Origin: Geosiphon pyriformis
Taxonomy: Eukaryota > Glomeromycota > Glomeromycetes > Archaeosporales > Geosiphonaceae
Length of the DNA stretch: 64,000 nucleotides
Direction: 5' to 3'
Assembly (NCBI GenBank): GCA_016748015.1
Contig: JAAOMT010000602.1
Coordinates: forward strand, 124,001 to 188,000
Made by a program: the position numbers and the translations under genes. The notes beneath the pieces were generated by a model that was not told the origin of the DNA, searched no databases, and saw only the letters and a program-made list of their open reading frames with translations. The first letter of the stretch is position 1, and every line of letters begins with the position of its first letter. This document shows, in pieces, positions 33,267-61,100 of the stretch.

Positions 33267-34712
33267 CTATAACGGTCTTCTTGTAAAATTCTTCAAACGA
33301 AATCTACCGAATTGTGTGAGCGATGCTGCCATATACACTTCAGCAGGCAATTCAGAAAAGCTTTGTAGAGCCAAGACATTATTTATTGAAAAGTGACACA
33401 CCCTGGCCTTCATATTAAGATAAAATGTAATCTCGTCACCCTTGGCGAATTCTTTATAGGTTTCGCTACTTATTTTTCCATTGTTGAATGTGGTTCTTCC
33501 TGACTCTCCTATCATCCAACAATTTTTTTGAAAATCCAATAAAGTTTCAAAATCCAAATTTTCAAGTCCACAAACACCAACGGAACCCCAAAAGCATTTT
33601 TCTTCGATTAAAACATTCCATTCATAGAGATAGTCTCCCGAAAAGAAATTAATTGTACGGATAGATTTATGGGCAGATATGCTGAGGTTTTTAGCTGTTA
33701 CAACCTTATTTGACTCTGTTATGGAAAGGCCAGCTCCACACGCTGTAGTATCCCAGATAAAATTCAAAGTTTCGTGAGGCTCACCACGTTGAAATTTGGG
33801 GTTACTCTCATCAAGCAAATGATATTGATAAACTTTCAGAAGAAAATTCACAGGAAGAACGTTCAGTGGTTGAATTATCACACCCAAAGCTTTTAAAGGT
33901 ATCATTCGAAAGTCAATCAAATAAATCAAAGGAAGAATTATTTTGGCTACTTTGGTTGCATTTTGTTGCGTCCGAGATTCATTTTGATAGTCAATTTGTT
34001 GCATTTTGGGAAGACTTTTTAAAAAATCTATGGATGAATCAAACGTAGGTAAAACCTTTGAAAATGCAGATAAAGTTTCTTCCGATATTTGATTTGCTGC
34101 CCACAAGATTATATAGCGTAGAATATCATACTCATTCGTAGCAAAGTATTGGTCGGTATTCAAAGTTGTAGTGAGAATTTTTTTTAACATCTCGAGATTC
34201 ATTTTATTGAATGGGAACGAATCAAGGGGTTTAGCGACAAGATGATTGCTAAGTAATGTATACAGCTGATTATCTTCCATTGTTCCCATTTTTGTGATTG
34301 CATTTGACAAAAAATCCCCGCTGGAGTCATTTTTCAAGCATTCCTCGACAAATGTAATAATAAGAGCTTCTAAATCTGGTAAAAGAAAATACTTGGCAGC
34401 ATGATAACCATCAATTGCAGTAGACGCTGTAATTGAACCTTTATCCAAACCACCCGTGTAAATAAATTCGAGGACAAGTTTCATACCCGCAGTAGAAATT
34501 TCAGGAAAAGTGATGGAATTGCCAAAAATCTCGTGCATTCCATTGAAAAGAAGTCTATCAAAAACTTCAGAACGAGCCGCCAAATGAATCCTAGATGCAT
34601 ACAGAAGTTCGCCCTCATTATCAACATCAGAGCATTTAATTTTAAGGTCACTATAACGAGAGTTGTTAACGAGAAATTTCAGGTCGACGACGAGCGAACT
34701 ACCACGGGTCAT
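33267..34712 (-). CDS. BTB-BACK-SPRY domain protein
   Basis: Single exon, 481 residues. Residues about 10-115 form a BTB/POZ domain: SRYSDLKIKCSD, then ASRIHLAARSEVFDRLL, ITFPEISTAGMKLVLEFIYTG and AAKYFLLPDLEALI. A BACK-like helical region follows (about 120-250). The C-terminal part (about 310-475) looks like a SPRY/B30.2 beta-sandwich: FIWDTTACGAGLSI, GDYLYEWNVLIEEKCFWGSVGV, GDEITFYLNMKARVCHFSINN, then LPAEVYMAASL. BTB-BACK proteins act as adaptors of CUL3 ubiquitin ligases, with the C-terminal sandwich choosing the partner. Mycorrhizal fungi hold large BTB families, more often with Kelch or TLDc ends. Substrate unknown. The start ATG follows in-frame stops. Confidence 0.82.
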   Translation of the reverse strand: MTRGSSLVVDLKFLVNNSRYSDLKIKCSDVDNEGELLYASRIHLAARSEVFDRLLFNGMHEIFGNSITFPEISTAGMKLVLEFIYTGGLDKGSITASTAIDGYHAAKYFLLPDLEALIITFVEECLKNDSSGDFLSNAITKMGTMEDNQLYTLLSNHLVAKPLDSFPFNKMNLEMLKKILTTTLNTDQYFATNEYDILRYIILWAANQISEETLSAFSKVLPTFDSSIDFLKSLPKMQQIDYQNESRTQQNATKVAKIILPLIYLIDFRMIPLKALGVIIQPLNVLPVNFLLKVYQYHLLDESNPKFQRGEPHETLNFIWDTTACGAGLSITESNKVVTAKNLSISAHKSIRTINFFSGDYLYEWNVLIEEKCFWGSVGVCGLENLDFETLLDFQKNCWMIGESGRTTFNNGKISSETYKEFAKGDEITFYLNMKARVCHFSINNVLALQSFSELPAEVYMAASLTQFGRFRLKNFTRRPL

Positions 34713-34865
34713 ATTCGATGTGAAAAGTTTAAGGGAAACCTATTGTTAATAAAAAACCATGAGAGGGCAGATATATACCTTATCCGATCAGCCTTTTTTG
34801 GATGCGCAGGCAAATCACGCGACGAATTCTTAATTATAATATTGGGGTAACTGAACAATCTAATG

Positions 34866-35759
34866 CACTAGACGGAAAAAAGTCATGAGACACTTTACAT
34901 TTTGTTATTTTGTGTCACAAAAAAATGATAAAATTTTATTTATAAATATAATTATCTATTATAATAGATTTTCAAATGTCCAAATTTAAACGAAAAGAAT
35001 TGATTACTTTTAGGCATATAAAGATTATTACTCTCTCAAAAGATGAAAAACCTGTATGTAAATATCAACGCAACTCAATTATCCTAAACCAATATACTTT
35101 CTTATTAAAAAAAAACTAATAATATTTAATCTGAAAAGTGGTATATCTTCTTTTATAAAACCATTTTCAAAAAATAATAAAAATGATCCAAAAAGTACTT
35201 TTAAAGAATTTATTAAAACTAAACTAGCACTTTTTTACACAAGATTGGAAAAAGTTATTAAAATGATGAATTAAGATTTTTTTTTTTTTTTTTGATAAAC
35301 TTCAAAGAATATGGAACAAGATTTAATAAGAAAAATTTAGTATCTACTGTAAAACATGGGTAAAAAAAGAATTATAATATGGAAATGTTTTTGTAAAACT
35401 GTATTGAGTTCTTTAGTTTTAATAGAAGGAATATTAAATCAGTTTGGATATATTAATCTATATATTGTCATGAATTCAATACAAATTTAATCATTAACAT
35501 TATTTTTTTCAACAAGATTTCTAAACTTGAATGACTCAAAACCATTTTCTTAAATGGCCAGCACAATCATCTAATCTTAAGTCCAAGAAGAATGAAAAAT
35601 AATTATACTGGATATCTACACAAAATTAATTAGCAGTATGATTGAACGTATTAAAGAATGTATTGAAAAGAAAAAAGGGCCAACTGATTATTAAATATTA
35701 ACTAAAATAGAAAGTTATCCAAGAATTGATAAAGTGTCCTATGACTTTTCTGCCTAGTG
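34866..35759 (+). mobile_element. Tc1/mariner DNA transposon relic (0.9 kb)
   Basis: Ends are inverted repeats of about 30 bp: CACTAGACGGAAAAAAGTCA on the left at 34866 and CACTAGGCAGAAAAGTCATA read from 35759 on the minus strand. Both continue into a shared ACACTTTA. The right end is flanked by TA and the left by TG, a decayed TA duplication. A plus-strand trace WPAQSSNLSP near 35552-35585 matches the WPxQSPDLNPIE block of Tc1 transposases. The remaining frames are full of stops. Its termini differ from those of the relic at 14811, so it is a separate family. Confidence 0.72.
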
Positions 35760-37498
35760 TATATGTTTTAATGTATTTTTATACTTAATTATTTAATCTT
35801 GTTTTTTTAATCGAAAATATGATTTATATTGTAAAAATGAGACGAGAGTATTAGAATTTACATTTAGAATAAACACATTTTCCAACTATTAGATCTTGCA
35901 AATGTTGTTTAATATTGAAAACCAATTTAAAAATTATATAAATTTTAAATAAAAATTATACTTTAAAGTTTCAAATTTGAATTATTACATTTAGGAATTT
36001 AAGGTATAAAAATTCATGATTATAAAAGTAATTAATAATGCTTTTCAATTAAGAAATATTCAAAGCACCAATTTTAAGATTAATTTTTAATGCTAAGATG
36101 TATAATGGAAACGAGATATGTTTGATTTTAATGTTTACATTTTTGAGGCGGACGATTTTTAATTTAATTAGGACCCAATTTTCAATGTTACGAGTGATGG
36201 TTTTAAACATGTAATTTTCACTCTATTGCCAGTTTTAACTGTTCATAATAAGAATTTGGTGCATTTGGATTAATGTAAGTTTAAAATGGCCATCAATTGT
36301 TTGAAACGTTTTCAAAGCAAAACTCTTTTGAGAAGAATGAAACACAAGTTTTTAAAAAAGCACTTCTAGTTATTATGGATAATGAAAATATTCCACAAAT
36401 GCAAAATAAGCTAAAGCGGGATAAAGTGATGAAAAAACTAAGTTGGTTGTACGAGTAAAATTTTTTCAAAACCTCAAAACGAGCAATAATATTTTTTTAG
36501 ACGACAAAAAACTTGTCTTCCTTAAATTTTAAAATGAATCCAAAGACTGTTTTATTTTATGTAATGTTTGAAGGACTTGGACGAATTAATCCTTAATAAC
36601 TTGCAGAAAAAATTCAAATTTCTAATATTTCAAAATAACCATTTTAATCATTCACATACCACCACCAACTCTTTGAATATTTTAGTCCTGAATTTAATTG
36701 AAGGATATACTTGGAAGATTTTAATTTGAAATTAAAAAAAAAAGACTGCTTCAATTCCTTATTTATCATGGGTAATACATTAAAATTCCACTTACAGCAT
36801 TTATCGTAAGTTAGTTGGGAAAAGGAATTTAAAATGTTGAAATTTAATAAAACCATCACCATTTTTGCAATATTTAACAATAAAATTATTTTTGGCAAGA
36901 GTGGGGGTAATAAACAAGGATTTCGTGTTCTAGCAAAAAAAAAAATCACTTTTTCTTAATCTCGAGTTTTGGTCCATAAATCACTTTAGAAGTAACCCTG
37001 ACCGATTAGTTTATATTCATTTCATATATATTCATTTCATGGGAGTGTTGCCCAACATAAAATATATCGAATTTTCGGAACATCAAAGAATTCTTTTGAA
37101 GAATGTTAAGAGAAATTTCGAAGTTGTAAACCAATTTCTTATATCGCATATGTCGCTGCTCTCTTCCCAATAATGGACGAATAGTTTGAGTGCAAAGTAA
37201 TTCGCAAATGAAAATGCACACCATTTGGCATTCAGCAGGTAAAGAATATGATTGCTAGGTCACATTCGTACCGGGTAGCACTACATACTACAGATGTGTC
37301 TAAATGATCAATTTAGGCGAACCAGAACTAATAAAATGCAAATATATAGTCCCAATTTCAGATTTACTATTAAAAGTTAGGAAAATTAATTCTAAATACC
37401 ATGCCCTTTGGCCGTCTTAACAAATTTCTAGACAGTTTTTTGACTTAATTCTATATATTTCCTGAAATTATTTTCCAAAAAGCAGACCGATCAAGAGA
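35760..37498. other. Intergenic region upstream of kinase gene
   Basis: No recognised gene. Minus-strand frames at 36644-36949 and 37006-37224 show no motif. Confidence 0.4.
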
Positions 37499-38873
37499 AT
37501 GGGGATAGCATTAAAAAGGCCAGAAATTGTTTCCATTGGATCAATTACAGCCAATTATTGCCCTACTCTTACCCCCGAAACTAGATATCGATTTTTTAAA
37601 AATTGTGTTCGATGTAAACAGCCAAATTCTTCCTATGGTTGGTGTCAATCTTGTGAATCTGCCAATTTTCGTAAAAATTTTTCTTCATGGACCAGTGGCA
37701 ACAATGAACTCGATCAATTAATTCGAAAATCACAAAGGAAAGCTATTACACCCAATGATTGTTTAGAATGGATACCTTTCAAACATCTTGAAAAAATTGA
37801 ATTGATTGCCTTTGGTGGATTTGGTGAGGTATCAAGAGCAATATGGGTTGAAGGACCAAGATTTAAATGGGATGAAAGATTGAAGCAAAGAATCAGAATC
37901 GGGCCGATAGAAGTTGCATTAAAGGAATTTTATAACTCAGAATATGTCAATGAAGAATTTCTTGATGATGTATGTCTTTGTTATTTTTGTTAACTGATTA
38001 TTTAATGAAATATCTATATTTAAATGACACGCTCAGAGTAAAAAATTTTCCCTTTAGTGGTATCTTGAGGATTCTAAACTATTTCAGAGAAGTAATATTC
38101 GGGGACATACTTCATCATGCTATGGAATATCCCAGAACCCAAATACCAAAAATTTCATTCTTGTAATGGAGGCTGGCTTGCCGTTCCATGAAAATTGCGT
38201 GAAAATAGCTCATGAAATTAGCTGGATGAAGAAACTTGAAATTCTGTATGAAATCGTGATTGCGTTATCAGCCCTTCATAGCGCAGGATTAATTCACGGC
38301 AATCTACACGAAGGAAACATACTTTTTAATCTAAAACATCCCAGTTATTTGTATTTAAATGATATTGGCTGTTTCTATCCTGTCAATGAATCTCAAAACG
38401 CAGGGCAAAATTTATTATACGGCGTTTTGCCATATCTTGCACCAGAACTTTTAATAGGAGGAACTAGATCTGCTGCAACCGATATTTACAGTTTTGGGAT
38501 GATTATGTATAGCGTAGCAACCGGAAAAAGGCCATTTTTCAATTGTACCCACGATGAAAAATTAGCCTCGAAGATTTGTCGCGGCACACGTCCTAAAGTT
38601 TCGAAGGATATTCCCGAGAGTTACGCGATGCTAATGAAACGTTGCCTTGATGAGGATTACAGAATTCGTCAAAAGGCATCAATAATCGCCGATATTATTG
38701 AAGATTGGATGGCACAATTAAAATTTGCAGTAGATGATAGGATTTCTAAAGAATTTAAAGAAGCTGAAGAAATTCGAAAAAAAAGGTTGAAATCAGGGGT
38801 GAAAATAGAAATTAAATCACATTCTGAAGCGGTTTACATTAGTAGACTTCTCGATTTTCCTAAGTTGAGATAA
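37499..38873 (+). CDS. TKL-type protein kinase homologue, probable pseudokinase
   Basis: Two exons, 37499-37969 and 38058-38873, with an 88 bp GT-AG intron in phase 0; 428 residues. An N-terminal ribbon C36-x2-C39...C49-x2-C52 and the following NFSSWTSGN segment are hallmarks of the large TKL kinase family in mycorrhizal fungi. The kinase fold follows: glycine loop AFGGFGEV (104-111), VALK with K142, CYGIS, and FILVMEAG as hinge. The catalytic loop reads IHGNLHEGN, with N239 where the catalytic aspartate of HRD stands; DIG (259-261) replaces DFG. LAPELL and DIYSFGMIMY follow as APE and alpha-F motifs. The usual GSLR stretch after the hinge is missing. With the catalytic Asp replaced, activity is doubtful; ATP binding may remain. 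A coiled, charged tail ends the protein. Confidence 0.85.
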
Positions 38874-40392
38874 AAAAAATTACAATCAATTGTGGGTTTC
38901 CTCTTGTAATTTTTTGATAAAGAATCTGTTAAATAGATACTTGATAAAAAATTTTCAAATAAAGTTTTATCTTGAATTTTTTAAAATGTGTGAGAGAATA
39001 TTGAACCATCAATTTTATTAAAGCATTTAATTGAATTAAGTAAGATTGAAATCTTAATATGCTAAAGATGTTGTTATCACAGAGGCTACTTTTTTATTGG
39101 AAATTAGCAACCTATAGCATTTTTGAAGCTTGATTTTTTTAATTTTTAAAGTCATAGTTTTTTCCAAGCACCTGACATACCAGGTTTGTTATACCTGCGA
39201 ATTAAATCCCAGCCAACCAAACAATAATAGCAGGTTTTGTTTTAACAAATTTTTTGCTTAAAAATATTCATGATTGTAAGATAGTCATGATTAAGACGTT
39301 TACAAAGATAATTAGACTTTTTGGGGGACAAAAAATGCTCATTTGATGTAATTCAATTAGAAATGCACTAATATCTTGAACATGTTATTTTACATAATTT
39401 CTCCCTTAAAAAGACTGAGAATGTTCCTTCTTTTCAAACAGATAATTTAAAGTTATCTGTTTGAAATATTTAAAAGCATATGAATTACATCAAAATAGAA
39501 TTTCAATCTAATCTATATTGTTTTGAAAAGTGGTCAATGCTACAAGGGTCACTATGGTGTTATTTCAATATCAAATTATTTTGGCATGTATTGGTTCTTA
39601 ATTGATATTTTTCTCGGCTTCAGAACTTGAATAAAGAATTATGAGTACTTAAGTGTCAATATTTACAAGTGAAATATTGAAAAATACAAAACTATGGAGA
39701 AATACAAAGCACCAATCGGTGATCCTTAACCTTAAACAATAATGTGCTATCTTCTCTTTATCAAAATTCGCCATACTTCAGAGCATACTAAAAAAAGTAT
39801 TTTTCATAACTTATTCTAAAGCCTTAAGAGAAAGACAGTTTCTTTCAAATAACTCTCGAAAGTTTTTTATTGGATCTCAATTGTTATTTTATCGAATATG
39901 AGCACTGGGTTCTGATTGAAAAAAATCATAACTTAATTGTAAAAGACCAATTGCATTTGCCCTCATATCAGAAAAGTAAACTTTCATGCAAAAAATTTCC
40001 CACATGACGCGAAAATGGTCTGCAGACTAATAATTATTTTTGAACGGTTTTTTTTTCAAAACAAACCTTGCAAATTTTGTCAGGCAGGTTCACAACCGGA
40101 AGCTTTAGCATAATTTAGAGTGATTAACGAATTAAAGATAATGATGCGGGATATTTGATTTGAAAAAATTTTCAAGGTTCTAGAATCTGTTCAATTATCG
40201 AAATAATTTGTTAATATGAAAGAAAAAGCTCAATAAATATCAACTATTTTTCCTTTCCTGAAATTGATGATCTCTGCTGGAAAATTAATTAATACGCAAT
40301 TCATTTCTTAAGGACTGAAACCTCGTCTTGATTATCGAAATTTATAAATAATTTTCACTTAGATCATCCATAAGCATAAATATAAATTAAAA
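38874..40392. other. Intergenic region
   Basis: No recognised gene or repeat in 1.5 kb between two plus-strand genes. Confidence 0.45.
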
Positions 40393-51089: not shown

Positions 51090-52097
51090 ATGTCGTTTGA
51101 TTCCTTCCTTCAAGATCCTTTAATTCGTGAATATCTTAATACAATAAACTCTGAAGAGGATCCAGAAGAATTTCTTCATACCATGAAATTATTGTTAAAT
51201 CCTCCATATGCCTTAACTCTACCATTCAAACAATTAATAAAGCCATCATCAAACCCTCGACGACTGAATCCACCACCAAGGCCAGCCAATCCATTCTTGA
51301 TCTTTCGCAGGAATTTCATGGCCAAAATAAAATCTTCGATGAGCCCCACAGATATTCTACCACCCATTGGAAGGATTTCTCAACTTGCTTCAGAAAGTTG
51401 GAAACAGCAACCGCTTGACGTGATTGATTACTTTTATAGTTTGGCAAACCTAGCAAAAAAGGAACACTTGAGACTTTACCCAGATTATATATTTAATCCT
51501 AAAATACGCCGCGGTCCACCACCAATGCGAACGTATAAATACGCTATAAAGGATACTTATATCGATTCAATAGAAAATTCTCAATTAAAATCAAATAGTA
51601 CAGTTCAAAATACTGTAAATGAGAAAGTACCAGATCTCATTCTTGAATCTCAAAAAAAAACTTCCCATATGGATTCTATATTAGATGAAGAAGAAACAAA
51701 CAATCCCAATCTTCACATTCACACTCACACTCACACTCCTTACCCTCATTTCACCAATTCACCAACTCACCAAACGTGTAATGTTGAAAGGGAAATTTTT
51801 AATGAAAATTTGACAGAAAAATCGGTTTCAGAAACTTATGACTCTTTCAATACCGATGGCTTTCAAATGGCTTTCGATTCTGGTGAAATTGATCAGAGAG
51901 TAGAAAAGTCCTCGATCTTGAGTAATAATGTTGATGAAATTGATTTTAATACTCCAGAGTTTGATCATTCACTAAAAAACCCCTTTATTCCTATAAAGAA
52001 TGATCAAAATCAAAATCAGAATTTAGAAGAAAATACCCTTGGGTCCCTATACATTTTCTCCCAATTAGAATACGCTCTATATTACATTTCTCAATAA
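51090..52097 (+). CDS. MATA-HMG box protein
   Basis: Single exon, 335 residues. Residues about 63-141 form an HMG box of the mating-type MATA class. It opens RPANPFLIFRRNFMAK (compare the RPxNAFILYRR start of the family), followed by ISQLASESWKQQP, then a YSLANLAKKEHLRLYPDY segment and a basic end NPKIRR. This three-helix domain bends DNA at its minor groove; fungal members control mating and development. Mycorrhizal fungi, long thought asexual, hold many MATA-HMG genes, so this copy need not be a mating-locus gene. The N-terminus is acidic. The C-terminal half is low-complexity, with an HTHTHTHT run from a CACACT repeat at 51710-51740 and Asn/Gln-rich parts, as in transcription regulators. 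The start is the first ATG after in-frame stops. Confidence 0.85.
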   Translation: MSFDSFLQDPLIREYLNTINSEEDPEEFLHTMKLLLNPPYALTLPFKQLIKPSSNPRRLNPPPRPANPFLIFRRNFMAKIKSSMSPTDILPPIGRISQLASESWKQQPLDVIDYFYSLANLAKKEHLRLYPDYIFNPKIRRGPPPMRTYKYAIKDTYIDSIENSQLKSNSTVQNTVNEKVPDLILESQKKTSHMDSILDEEETNNPNLHIHTHTHTPYPHFTNSPTHQTCNVEREIFNENLTEKSVSETYDSFNTDGFQMAFDSGEIDQRVEKSSILSNNVDEIDFNTPEFDHSLKNPFIPIKNDQNQNQNLEENTLGSLYIFSQLEYALYYISQ

Positions 52098-55027: not shown

Positions 55028-57001
55028 TTACAGATTTTCGACTATGTTTGGCTGATTATCATAGACCATCGATAATTCTAACTCATCTTGAGGTTTTTGA
55101 TGTTTACGCTTTTCTTTTCGATTTTGGTCGAAATCTTGTGTCGTCTCAAACTTCCATTCTTCGTAATCTTTCTTCTCTGGCAAGAGTTGTAACATTAATA
55201 TCTCGACGATTAGAGTAGCTAATGACTAAATTCAACGGATTTTGGAAAAATTTGGAGTCAATACACATGTCTTCGTTTTTTACGTTTTATTCTGTTCAAA
55301 ATACTTACAAATAACGCGAAGCCTGCCACAATATTTTGAAGAAGTGTGATAAAATCAAAAACGCCGATCGAACCATATTGTTGGAATACCAAACGAATGC
55401 TACCACAAAGATTACATAAGAAATTGTATTAAATGAAACCAGAAATGAGCAAAGGACAAACACCTACCCGTGTCTTTCTTTTAAAATATAAGATTTATCA
55501 CCACCATATATACTTTCAACCGTTTTATACTCATTGCCATCAATCATTTGGGGATAATAAGTGTAGGTAATAACATTATCCTGAATGGATTATTGGGACT
55601 CGTAAAAATCAAAACAAACCATTTATAAAATTCATAATAAACCTTTATATTTCAATAAGATTACCTTGAACGGAACGTTTATATACTCGATTACAACGAC
55701 AATAACCAGACCAGATGATCGATAAGTTTCTCTGGAATCAGCACCAGGGGCCGATGAAATAGCTAAAGTGATAAATTTCACAAAAAAATTTCAACTTTCA
55801 AGTCGGTTTCGGTTGCGGAAATTATTTTTAAGGCTCGTATTACCATCCAAATCAGCCCCAGCTGCATCTAATATCTGCCGAATAGTAAGAATATCTCCAT
55901 CTGCTTTAGGATTATCGGCTGTCTAATATCAAAGAAAACTCTTTTCTCAGTGAAATTTTTGATTTATTTAATTTTGGAATTTTGGGAATCATGGCCAACA
56001 CTAACCCGAGTCGCGTTTGTCCAAGATTTGAGAACTTTGCCTTTATGGTTTACCAGCTTACCATCCATCAAGCCGTTACGTAATCCAATAGAGGTTGCTT
56101 TTCCTCGGATTGAATGCTCAATCATAATCTAAAAATCAAGGAATAAAGTTTTAAATCAATATTTTTTGCAAACATCCGTTATATATACAGCCAAAAAATT
56201 TTAAAGTTACTGTGTAATCTTCAATATGGCCGATATAAGATTTATTGACAATTAATTCGTAAGGCGTGGACTTCGGATCAAAAAAACATGATTGATTATT
56301 CGGTTGGCTCGCTGTCAGAAAGTTACAGTCATTTGGGGGGTATTTTTTCACAACTGCTCTTGTGGTAAAAAATGCTACGCCTGGGCCATCATTCGGATAG
56401 TAAACTGTAAAAGTTATAGCATGAATACCATGATAAGTTCTCATTATTTCATAGTAAAGTCCTGGTAAGAACTAAGAGAATGGAAAAATCCCTACTCTCG
56501 TTTGCTCCCCAATAAACACAAGATATATCCGAATTACAATATTCTGGATTTGTAAAATTATCCAGAGCTTTTTCGAAATCCGGAGCTTTTAATGATAGTC
56601 TTACGGCACCTGGTACAGGAGGTTCCTAAAGAATTGAATTTGTAACCTTTTCAAGAAAATCATCGTGCGAGACACGAAGATAAAACTTTTACCTACTTTT
56701 TTTAGGTATCCTAGATTTTTGATGATTGAATAAATTATATAGGCAAATATTCCTATTTGAAACGTGCGATATATAACCCCTAGACGTTTGCTATGTAATA
56801 GGAGTAAAAAAGGTTAAATTTTTCATCATACCCCAAGGAAAAAAACAGAAACCACTCACTCTTGAACCTTGACAATTTTGAAGGTTTCGTAGCTAGAAAT
56901 ATTCAATAAGAAACGAAGCACATCAGTCACAACCCTTTGGTAATTTTTTTGACAGATGAATACCTAAAAAAACCGTCTATCAATCCTTTAATATCTGGCA
57001 T
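55028..57001 (-). CDS. P2X-like ATP-gated cation channel
   Basis: Eleven exons: 57001-56964, 56892-56860, 56790-56697, 56625-56496, 56461-56211, 56128-56006, 55922-55844, 55762-55665, 55580-55468, 55399-55309, 55225-55028; 415 residues. The N-terminus reads FFSYETFKIVK, with the Y-x-T-x-K motif (T16, K18) found in all P2X subunits. KRLGVIYRTFQIGIFAYIIY follows as membrane segment 1 (about 29-47). The ectodomain has two glycosylation sequons (N78, N220), DYTIMIEHSIRG like the P2X (N)FTxLIKxSI strand, and LTIRQILDAAGADL like the P2X GDIVxxAG block. It closes with K316 and HGIRL before segment 2 (about 335-362), matching the K-x-YGIR end of the P2X ectodomain. P2X receptors are trimeric cation channels opened by ATP. 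The NFR ligand motif and WDCDLD cysteine block are absent, so ligand response may differ. Intron 4 (34 bp) is unusually short. Confidence 0.82.
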
Positions 57002-57671: not shown

Positions 57672-58140
57672 CTGAGATTCGGGAACCAAAGTCCAGCTAA
57701 GGAACCAGATTTCCCATAAATAATTCCTCGGCAAATCACAATTCCATTGAAATTGGAAGATGAAATGACCTTTTGTTCAATGGGGACTCTCCATGATAGA
57801 AAAGGTGGTATATTGTTTAGTGGAGTATTCTCCGTCACAATTTCTGAAATATTGTCTCCATGAATCTGTATTTTAGGGAAGCGAAGATGAAAATAAGCTT
57901 TTAGGAAAAAAGAGTTTTTGTGATAAAGAGTTAATTTCAAATATGAAATATTGAGTTATTACCCAAAGGCCGGAAGTATAAATATAAGTCAACTTTTGTT
58001 GATTATTGACTGCACGTCTTTTTGAAAAGGTTTCAATTGTAGCGATAATATGTTCGGTATCTACAGTTCCGTTTTCATAGTTCACCGTAGTGTCAATTAC
58101 TACGTCAACCTTTTCAGCGATTGCGGACCGGCGAAAACTT
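57672..58140 (-). pseudogene. Truncated NAD-dependent epimerase/dehydratase gene
   Basis: Two minus-strand coding pieces, about 58140-57963 and 57865-57672, separated by a 97 bp GT-AG intron. The first reads VDVVIDTTVNYEN and TYIYTSGLW, which fits the central Rossmann part of extended SDR enzymes (the VVIHTA and IYTSG strands). The second reads IHGDNISEIVTENTP, PFLSWRVPIEQKVI, GIVICRGIIYGKSGSLAGLWF, which fits the following part including the E..VL helix and RPGxVYG motif. The nucleotide-binding GxxGxxG N-terminus is missing: homology stops at about 58140, precisely where the AT-extreme block begins. No C-terminal exon is found. It is a fragment, probably non-functional. Confidence 0.6.
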
Positions 58141-58149
58141 CGTATCCCA

Positions 58150-61100
58150 TGTTTGAAAAAAAAACTTTAATATATATTATTTATTTCATTGCCAAATTAT
58201 TTAGCAAAATAAATGAATAATTTGCTTCAATTAAATTATCTGCTGGATTTTTCGAAAAATTTCTTCAATTTGTATATTTTATTAACTTGTTTTATTCGAA
58301 AAAACTTTCTTATTTTTTAATATTATAGCTGAAAATTTTTGTTAATGTAATTTTTAGGTTTAATAGACTTGATTTTTTGCTTCTTTTAAAAGCCAAATTT
58401 TAAAATTAATTGACTCTTTTAATTCTTTTAAGATATGTAAAACTTTGTCTTGTTTAAATATCAATATATTATAAATTAGTTTTATATTTCTTAATAAAAT
58501 GACTATCAAAATCAAAAAATTTTTCTTAAAATTTATTGATTTAGGAAAAATAATATCAATTGATAATAGGTTTGAACGTATTAAATTATTTTTCAATACT
58601 TTTTTAAAGTTTTAAAATCTTTTGCTTAAATAGTTAATAAAAAATAAATAACAAATTAACAACTAAGTCAATTATTTAATCAATAATCATATTAATATTT
58701 AAGTTAATTCTAAAAATAAGAATAAATAAATATTTAACATTAATAATTATTATAATAATAAATTTTATTCTTTAAACATTTTATGTTGTAATAATTTTAT
58801 TAAATTATCTGTACAATTAATTTGTTTTTTATATAAAACTCTTTTTTGACACTTTTATCAAATTATTGTATTAAATTTTGTAAATGTAATCTTTTGAATT
58901 GTTTAAATAAATTATTGTTATCAAATCTTAAAAATTAAAAATTAATACTTTATTAATATTAAATTTAAATACATAAACAAATTTATTTTTATAAATAATT
59001 CTAACTATCCAAAATTTTGATCATTTCTCCTTAATTTTAGCATCACATCCTTTAAAATTTTAAAAAGCTTTAATTTTGCTGTTTAAAAAACTATATTCTA
59101 TGACAATTTATGTAATATATCTTTGCTTTTCCAGTTTTATACTTATTTTTTTTATTACTACCAATAAACCTTAAAATTCAATTATTTTTAATAGTCTACT
59201 ATTATTTTTTTAAAAGAATTAATATAAAAAAATTTGTAACAACTCCGATTAGTCATTATGATATAATATTAATTATAATATTTTTTTGGTTAAAATAATA
59301 TCACATAGATAATAATACGTTATAAATTACAATATATATTGTAATTATTCAAATTTTGTCACGTAACTTCTAATTTTTTACTTCAAAACAGTTTTCAAGA
59401 CTTTAAAAAAACGCGTGTTTTATGAAAATAAATATAGAACTATGTATACAAGGTATAAATTATATTTTTTAATATTATAATTAATAGTATGAATAATTTT
59501 TATATTAAACTGGTTCATATATTATATTAAATCAAATATTTGATATAAATTAGCACAAGAAGAAATAATTAAGTTGCCTTTAGAAGAAGATATGTATAAA
59601 AATAATACAAGTTTATATGTTAAAATTATTCTTATTCTAATTTTTAATTTAAAAAATTTGTAAAATTGCCTTATCAAGTACTTTAAACATAATATAAATG
59701 AAAATATGACCAAATCAAGTAATTAAAGTTCTATAAATTATTGTAATTTTGGTTATATTTACTTTAAGTTTCTTATTTTTCTTTTATTTAGTTATAAATA
59801 AAGATATAATTGAATTAAATAATCAAAACTTTATAAATGAAGATAAAATTATTAAAAATAACTTATTAATAATTGGATTGCTTATTAAAAAAGTAAAAAA
59901 TACCAAAATAGATTATTATATTAAAGAAGTCAGACATTAAATATTACCAACTGCTACTATTTGAATTTTTGTTTATTATACAAAAAACTTAACTATTAAA
60001 ATTTTTAAATTTACTAAAACTTTTAGATTTAATAATTAAATTACAGTATTAACTTATAAACTAATAAGATATATATTTACTAATATTATTATTCTTTGTA
60101 TTGTAACATTAATAAATATTTGATTTGCTTAAACTTGTTTTTTTTATGGTATTATTAACGTAATCATTATTTGTACTAAAATATTAAATGTTTTTTTGTA
60201 TTAGTTTATAAAATTTTTTAATTATAGTATCATTTTAGTATCATTTTAGTATAATTATTATTTTTAATAGCAAGTTGAGTTGTTTGTTATATAAATATTT
60301 ATATCTTATTATATTTAAGTTTTTTTTGTGCTGTATAATAGTTATTTAATAGAAGTATTTTATTTAAATAATTTTTTATAATTTTTTAATTCATAAAATG
60401 ATAAGACTTGCTAATAATATTATTGTTTTTTTGTTTATTAATATACCATCATAAGAGTATTATTTAAATATAAAATTTTGTGACTTTTGAATATGTTATT
60501 ACTTAAAAATAGTGATAACAAATGATATATTAAACATAAATAAAATTGAATCAATTATTATTATAAAATATAAATTTTTGCTATTATCAAACCAAATATC
60601 AATAATTTTTTATACTTCTTAAATGTTTTATTTATTAATTTTAGTGATCATTAATTTTAACATAATTTGTTTAGTATTATATAAATTTTTAATAAATTTG
60701 TTTGTTATATGAAAACTAATTATTAGAAATAATTTTAAACATACTTAATTTATTTCATTATAAATATTAATAGTATTTAATTGTATTTGATTTATAATAA
60801 AGTATAAACTTATGCTATTTTAGTATATTTAACAAATAAAATATAAAATATAAAATTCTAATCATTTGTTTGTTAATATTAGGAAAAAATCATAACTAAT
60901 TAATATAATTTTTTTTTACAAAATAATAGAGTATAATACTTAAAAACAATTCTATTTTGCTTTAGCTTGAAGTTTTAAATCTAATATATTAATAAAATTA
61001 TACAAAGTATTATTTATTGTAAATATATATTTGATAATATTATTAAAACTTTTAATATAAGTAGTAATTTAAATGTCTGCAATAAATATTTTTGATATAA

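Follow-up and report, generated by a model that had tools for sequence, protein, structure and literature searches.

A P2X-family gene in eleven predicted exons of Geosiphon pyriformis, with altered residues at the presumed ATP-contact positions of animal homologues by alignment

P2X receptors outside animals have been described in Dictyostelium, where P2XA has no equivalent of the ectodomain cysteines and very low identity to mammalian receptors, yet is activated by ATP, and where the receptors reside on the contractile vacuole, their ATP site facing the lumen (PMC3853471). For basal fungi, P2X homologues have been on record since 2012 (Cai, as cited by PMC3853471), and a 2023 study grouped the fungal P2X of Allomyces with those of Dictyostelium and algae in a branch separate from the human one (PMC10620158). 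A 2025 sponge paper has the Gigaspora margarita P2X among its aligned sequences and uses the motif names KxKG, NFR, and YxxxK, which are adopted below (PMC11883242). Here we describe a P2X gene of Geosiphon pyriformis. It lies on the minus strand at 55028..57001 of a 64,000-nucleotide stretch of contig JAAOMT010000602.1 (hereafter the window), and its residues are compared with the human branch of P2X only. Geosiphon belongs to the Archaeosporales within Glomeromycotina and hosts Nostoc cyanobacteria. A preliminary description, made from the DNA letters alone, had taken the host for a probable mycorrhizal, plant-associated fungus; Geosiphon does fall within the subphylum of the arbuscular mycorrhizal (AM) fungi, but it is not known to form mycorrhiza itself.

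Gene structure and family membership

The gene starts with an ATG at 57001 and its stop codon ends at 55028. Eleven exons, separated by GT-AG introns of 68 to 91 bases, join into one frame of 396 codons plus stop, in agreement with the spliced eleven-exon gene proposed earlier. The encoded protein matches the P2X family profile PF00864 at 74.3 bits against a curated cut-off of 27, as the preliminary description had anticipated, and its predicted structure shows the fold of a P2X subunit. Membership in the P2X family is well supported. The animal-type ATP site and the ten-cysteine ectodomain mark a subset of P2X proteins, and family membership needs neither. The gene is hence of a known kind, a sound and here corrected member of a family that is partly annotated in relatives. 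A second copy elsewhere in the Geosiphon genome, represented by public model P0058, is included in the first line of the following layout.

56964..57001, minus strand: exon 1, start codon and cytosolic N-terminus MPDIKGLIDGFF (the second Geosiphon copy P0058 begins MPDIKGFMEGLLEYETFK)
56860..56892, minus strand: exon 2, YETFK (YxTxK motif)
56697..56790, minus strand: exon 3, membrane segment 1
56496..56625, minus strand: exon 4, with the first strand of the ectodomain (R64, K68) and cysteines 85 and 91
56405..56495, minus strand: intron 4, 91 bases (corrected)
56211..56404, minus strand: exon 5, TTR, cysteines 125 and 138, up to T163
56006..56128, minus strand: exon 6, ectodomain (IMIEHSIRG), sequon N201
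55844..55922, minus strand: exon 7, ectodomain
55665..55762, minus strand: exon 8, ectodomain
55468..55580, minus strand: exon 9, E280-Y281-K282 (aligned with NFR), K297, E298, R299, H300
55309..55399, minus strand: exon 10, IR of GIR (the G is split between exons 9 and 10), beginning of membrane segment 2
55028..55225, minus strand: exon 11, remainder of membrane segment 2, YEEWK (YxxxK), charged tail, stop codon

The length of 415 residues given earlier does not hold, as intron 4 ends at 56405 instead of 56462. The preliminary description listed no exons, but a 34-base intron 4 yields exactly 415 residues, 19 more than the present model, and we take this to be its gene model. Intron 4 was selected from 21 frame-keeping donor-acceptor pairs with GT or GC donors. 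The 91-base intron was chosen because it fits both the length of the corresponding stretch in relatives and the second copy. With it, the W93-T112 stretch has 20 residues, as it also does in 55 of the 64 homologues covering the stretch; seven others have 14 to 21 residues (differing by one to six), and the Jimgerdemannia models P0055 and P0056 have 35 and 34, respectively. Intron 4 of the second copy, read along P0058, has the same place and phase. The 91-base intron yields CVYWGANEIYYPNDGPGVAFFTTR, matching P0001, the public model of this locus, and the Pfam score falls to 71.0 bits with the 34-base intron. The latter was set aside together with 19 other candidates, one of them of 46 bases.

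The protein carries several features named in the preliminary description, including YETFK at residues 14-18, the GIR segment at residues 301-303, and a glycosylatable ectodomain with four N-glycosylation sequons (N78, N135, N152, and N201). Two membrane segments flank the large ectodomain, as judged from the model helices and their alignment to P2X4. The second is strongly hydrophobic, with 19-residue Kyte-Doolittle windows above 1.6 within residues 312-348. For the first, the predicted structure has a helix at residues 25-48 (144-167 of P0001) that aligns with the P2X4 TM1. Four cysteines are present at positions 85, 91, 125, and 138, in place of the ten conserved in the animal-type ectodomain; the former two are found in 61 of 62 homologues and the latter two in all 64. 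The alignment also indicates a head region far shorter than that of P2X4. The tail motif YxxxK is formed by Y352 and K356.

The second Geosiphon copy and the family among fungi

Searching the Geosiphon genome with the protein gave at least 18 matches on two contigs, the present one and a contig (C136) to which the first 380 residues of P0058 map exactly. Along P0058, the second copy has ten introns, all of which (10/10) agree with the present gene in position and phase once the six-residue insertion in exon 4 is allowed for; the agreement is between gene models of the two loci, one of them public, and is not transcript-based. The protein pair shares 279 of 389 aligned residues (71.7% identity). 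Between the copies, the codons differ at 198 of 389 third positions, 76 first positions, and 53 second positions, giving a dN of 0.19 and a dS of 1.78 by the NG86 method and 0.18 and 1.20 by LWL85. The resulting dN/dS of about 0.11 is approximate, as a dS near 1.8 is close to saturation. The gene is under purifying selection. A search of the genome with the PF00864 profile gave no match in Geosiphon or in 14 control genomes, which is probably due to the short exons and, for the controls, to a possible lack of the family. At 34500-39500 of the second contig, P0058 fuses the P2X copy with a part matching BTB, BACK, and TLD; read from the DNA, the last exon of this copy extends to its own stop, giving 406 residues. 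Elsewhere in the window, positions 51090-52097 of the plus strand hold an open frame in one exon, 335 residues long and matching an HMG box (PF00505, 26.9 bits).

The occurrence of a P2X gene in a fungus, put forward in the preliminary description, is borne out, although it is not surprising, as many Glomeromycotina, along with other early-diverging fungi, have the family. Fifty-three of the 57 matches in the protein search are named; 49 are from genera that we take to be Glomeromycotina and four from Jimgerdemannia. The named matches listed in a profile search for distant relatives likewise all belong to Glomeromycotina or Jimgerdemannia. When a Jimgerdemannia query was added, the matches listed included Syncephalis (two), Basidiobolus, Paraphysoderma, and Nowakowskiella. 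Mortierella, Mucorales, and Dikarya are not among the named matches listed; the search requires shared words, so this does not imply absence. The Nowakowskiella protein P0070 is a P2X homologue (PF00864, 60.7 bits) publicly named cytochrome c oxidase subunit 1, which is likely a misannotation. In Rhizophagus, P0047, P0050, P0051, P0052, and P0053 form a divergent set with an altered second membrane segment.

A midpoint-rooted tree was built of 28 rows, namely this protein, two animal P2X4 chains, and 25 hand-chosen from 71 database proteins, with P0058 trimmed to residues 1-395. The Geosiphon pair is recovered (98/95), and the Ambispora pair joins it next (100/99), a grouping that fits species kinship and descent within Archaeosporales. 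However, 8 of the 25 inner branches are open, the two Acaulospora copies are separated, and long branches lead to two rows, so that the deep order is not settled.

Ligand-site residues and the channel reading

We consider the protein most likely, with a probability of about 0.7, to be a P2X-family member and a predicted trimeric cation channel opened by ATP or by a polyphosphate ligand much like it. If it works as other P2X receptors do, the pore would be built of three subunits, the ligand would bind between them in the ectodomain, and binding would spread the second membrane helices so that cations, presumably Ca2+ and Na+, could pass. The ectodomain would face the cell exterior or the vacuole lumen.

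The ligand site was compared over 70 homologues besides P0001, fragments included and gaps set aside; these are related sequences and not independent. The residue register relies on animal P2X4 chains only, and site positions are numbered by human P2X4, whose K67, K69, N293, R295, and K313 we take to be ATP-contacting positions. Threonine is retained at the T186 position in 61 of 63 homologues, the F294 position is Tyr in 61 of 63, and the R295 position is Lys in all 63. A second group of residues, numbered by this protein, is nearly fixed as well: R64 (Arg in 59 of 61), R114 (Arg in 63 of 64), H168 (His in 64 of 66), and R299 (Arg in 59 of 59). In this protein, KxKG reads S66-L-K68-A with the second lysine alone. 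The NFR string is missing, as the preliminary description had noted, but E280-Y281-K282 aligns there, conservative at Phe and Arg only, its third residue being basic; this register is common to HHalign and two modes of MAFFT. The single lysine noted earlier, K68, does align with K69, but at a poorly conserved position. The altered ligand chemistry proposed there is supported by the alignment, although the telling residues are mostly others than those it named. Several presumed ATP-contact positions of the animal channels carry a different conserved residue set in fungi, as far as the aligned sequences tell, and the basic residues of the ligand pocket have likely been rearranged. These near-fixed but rearranged basic residues are the part worth specialist attention.

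Several observations weigh against a channel opened by ATP. In the ligand site, the K67 position is Thr or Ser in 59 of 61 homologues, the K69 position is Gln in 38 and Lys in only 13 of 62, the N293 position is Glu in 57 of 63, and the K313 position, occupied by E298 here, is Asp, Asn, or Glu in 58 of 59 and Arg in one. Around R64 and R299 the similarity is weak and the register may be shifted by a residue or two; HHalign pairs R64 with T65. The first membrane segment described earlier has no Kyte-Doolittle window reaching 1.6. The predicted structure is a monomer with an overall pLDDT of 70.7 and a pTM of 0.62, and Foldseek gives it moderate TM-scores (0.35-0.42 by query, with an rmsd of 7.5-11.8); because the model is monomeric and these scores are moderate, no inter-subunit pocket is visible.

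The residue changes raise the question of whether the P2X fold has been kept for a channel no longer responsive to ATP and opened by another anionic ligand, such as the polyphosphate stored in fungal vacuoles. Among the presumed animal contacts K67, K69, R295, and K313, the R295 position alone is basic in 63 of 63 homologues; this protein retains two of the four (K68 and K282), and R64, R114, H168, K282, and R299 are nearly fixed in fungi. However, T163 and the basic residue at the R295 position are retained, and the ATP activation of Dictyostelium P2XA despite lost cysteines and very low identity (PMC3853471) argues in the same direction. We consider such a loss of the ATP response unlikely. 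Location is a separate matter. A channel gated by ATP on internal membranes only, sensing lumenal vacuole ATP as in Dictyostelium, would be an alternative to a surface channel but is compatible with the ATP-gated reading, and the odds of the two do not exclude each other; we put those of the internal channel slightly short of even. The Dictyostelium receptors on the contractile vacuole, with their lumenal ATP site (PMC3853471), favour it. The YxxxK motif, which in mammals favours retention at the membrane (PMC3853471), points the other way, but does not decide membrane location because a trafficking motif is reported in D. discoideum as well as in Gigaspora (PMC11883242). A more far-reaching version, in which early-diverging fungi hold their own P2X branch with a rebuilt pocket (R64, K282, and R299 replacing K67/K69, R295, and K313) that senses polyphosphate or nucleotides stored in the vacuole lumen and gives a Ca2+ signal, is speculative and improbable. 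If true, it would connect Ca2+ signalling with phosphate storage in AM-type fungi.

The remaining alternatives concern the gene itself. An 18-base insertion in exon 4 (56563-56580), which encodes D71-L76 and adjoins the near-repeats AAAGCTCCGGAT and AAAGCTCTGGAT, looks like a tandem duplication. Its columns are empty in 70 of 70 homologues in one alignment, and another alignment put three residues of P0020 there. An insertion so private might suggest a decaying or non-functional copy, but with an intact spliced frame, a dN/dS of about 0.11, and the near-fixed residues retained, decay is highly improbable. Equally hard to credit is that the annotated record at the locus, P0001 (G9A89_010231; 100% identity over 97% of the query), is correct and that the P2X part is the C-terminal portion of a 515-residue fusion. 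P0001 lacks exon 1 and has in its place residues translated from the tail of intron 1, whereas the second Geosiphon copy begins with a counterpart of exon 1, and the pLDDT is under 50 for P0001 residues 1-22 and 32-115. P0001 links exons of an upstream gene (approximately residues 1-118; about 57672-58150, minus strand) to the P2X gene; a Pfam scan gave no match in this upstream part.

Hardly any ligand-gated channels are known to have been tested in AM fungi and their relatives, all obligate symbionts. No functional study of a Glomeromycotina P2X was found in the literature, judged mostly by titles and the beginnings of abstracts and with few subscription journals covered; mentions of P2X in other hits concerned a promoter name, a cited P2X7 review, and a plant review. 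With a conserved and often multi-copy family in hand, one can ask whether Ca2+ entry during symbiosis is gated by ATP or polyphosphate, and its rearranged near-fixed basic residues offer a natural test of the contacts P2X channels need.

Comparison with known systems

Among the P2X proteins of other Glomeromycotina, P0012 of Rhizophagus irregularis, P0015 of Gigaspora margarita (named 'P2X purinoceptor 4'), and P0002 of Paraglomus occultum, for example, are 57, 59, and 67% identical to the Geosiphon protein, respectively, and have the same motifs and site residues. The Geosiphon copy differs from them in the six-residue exon 4 insertion and in K68, where all three have Gln. The proteins of Paraphysoderma and Nowakowskiella are more divergent, with 37% identity to P0001, but share E-x-K and R-H-G with this protein. 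Basal fungi (Allomyces, Spizellomyces, and Batrachochytrium) have the same family (Cai 2012, as cited in PMC3853471). The likeness to animal P2X (human P2X4 and P2X3) lies in the topology, YxTxK/R, GIR, YxxxK, the acidic residue of TM2, and the predicted fold. Different from the animal receptors, the Geosiphon protein is without KxKG, has EYK at the NFR position and an acidic residue at the K313 position, and has a shorter head and four cysteines instead of ten (ten according to PMC3853471). Dictyostelium P2XA-E are, by description, likewise non-animal P2X receptors with few of the animal ectodomain features, and most of them are activated by ATP (PMC3853471).
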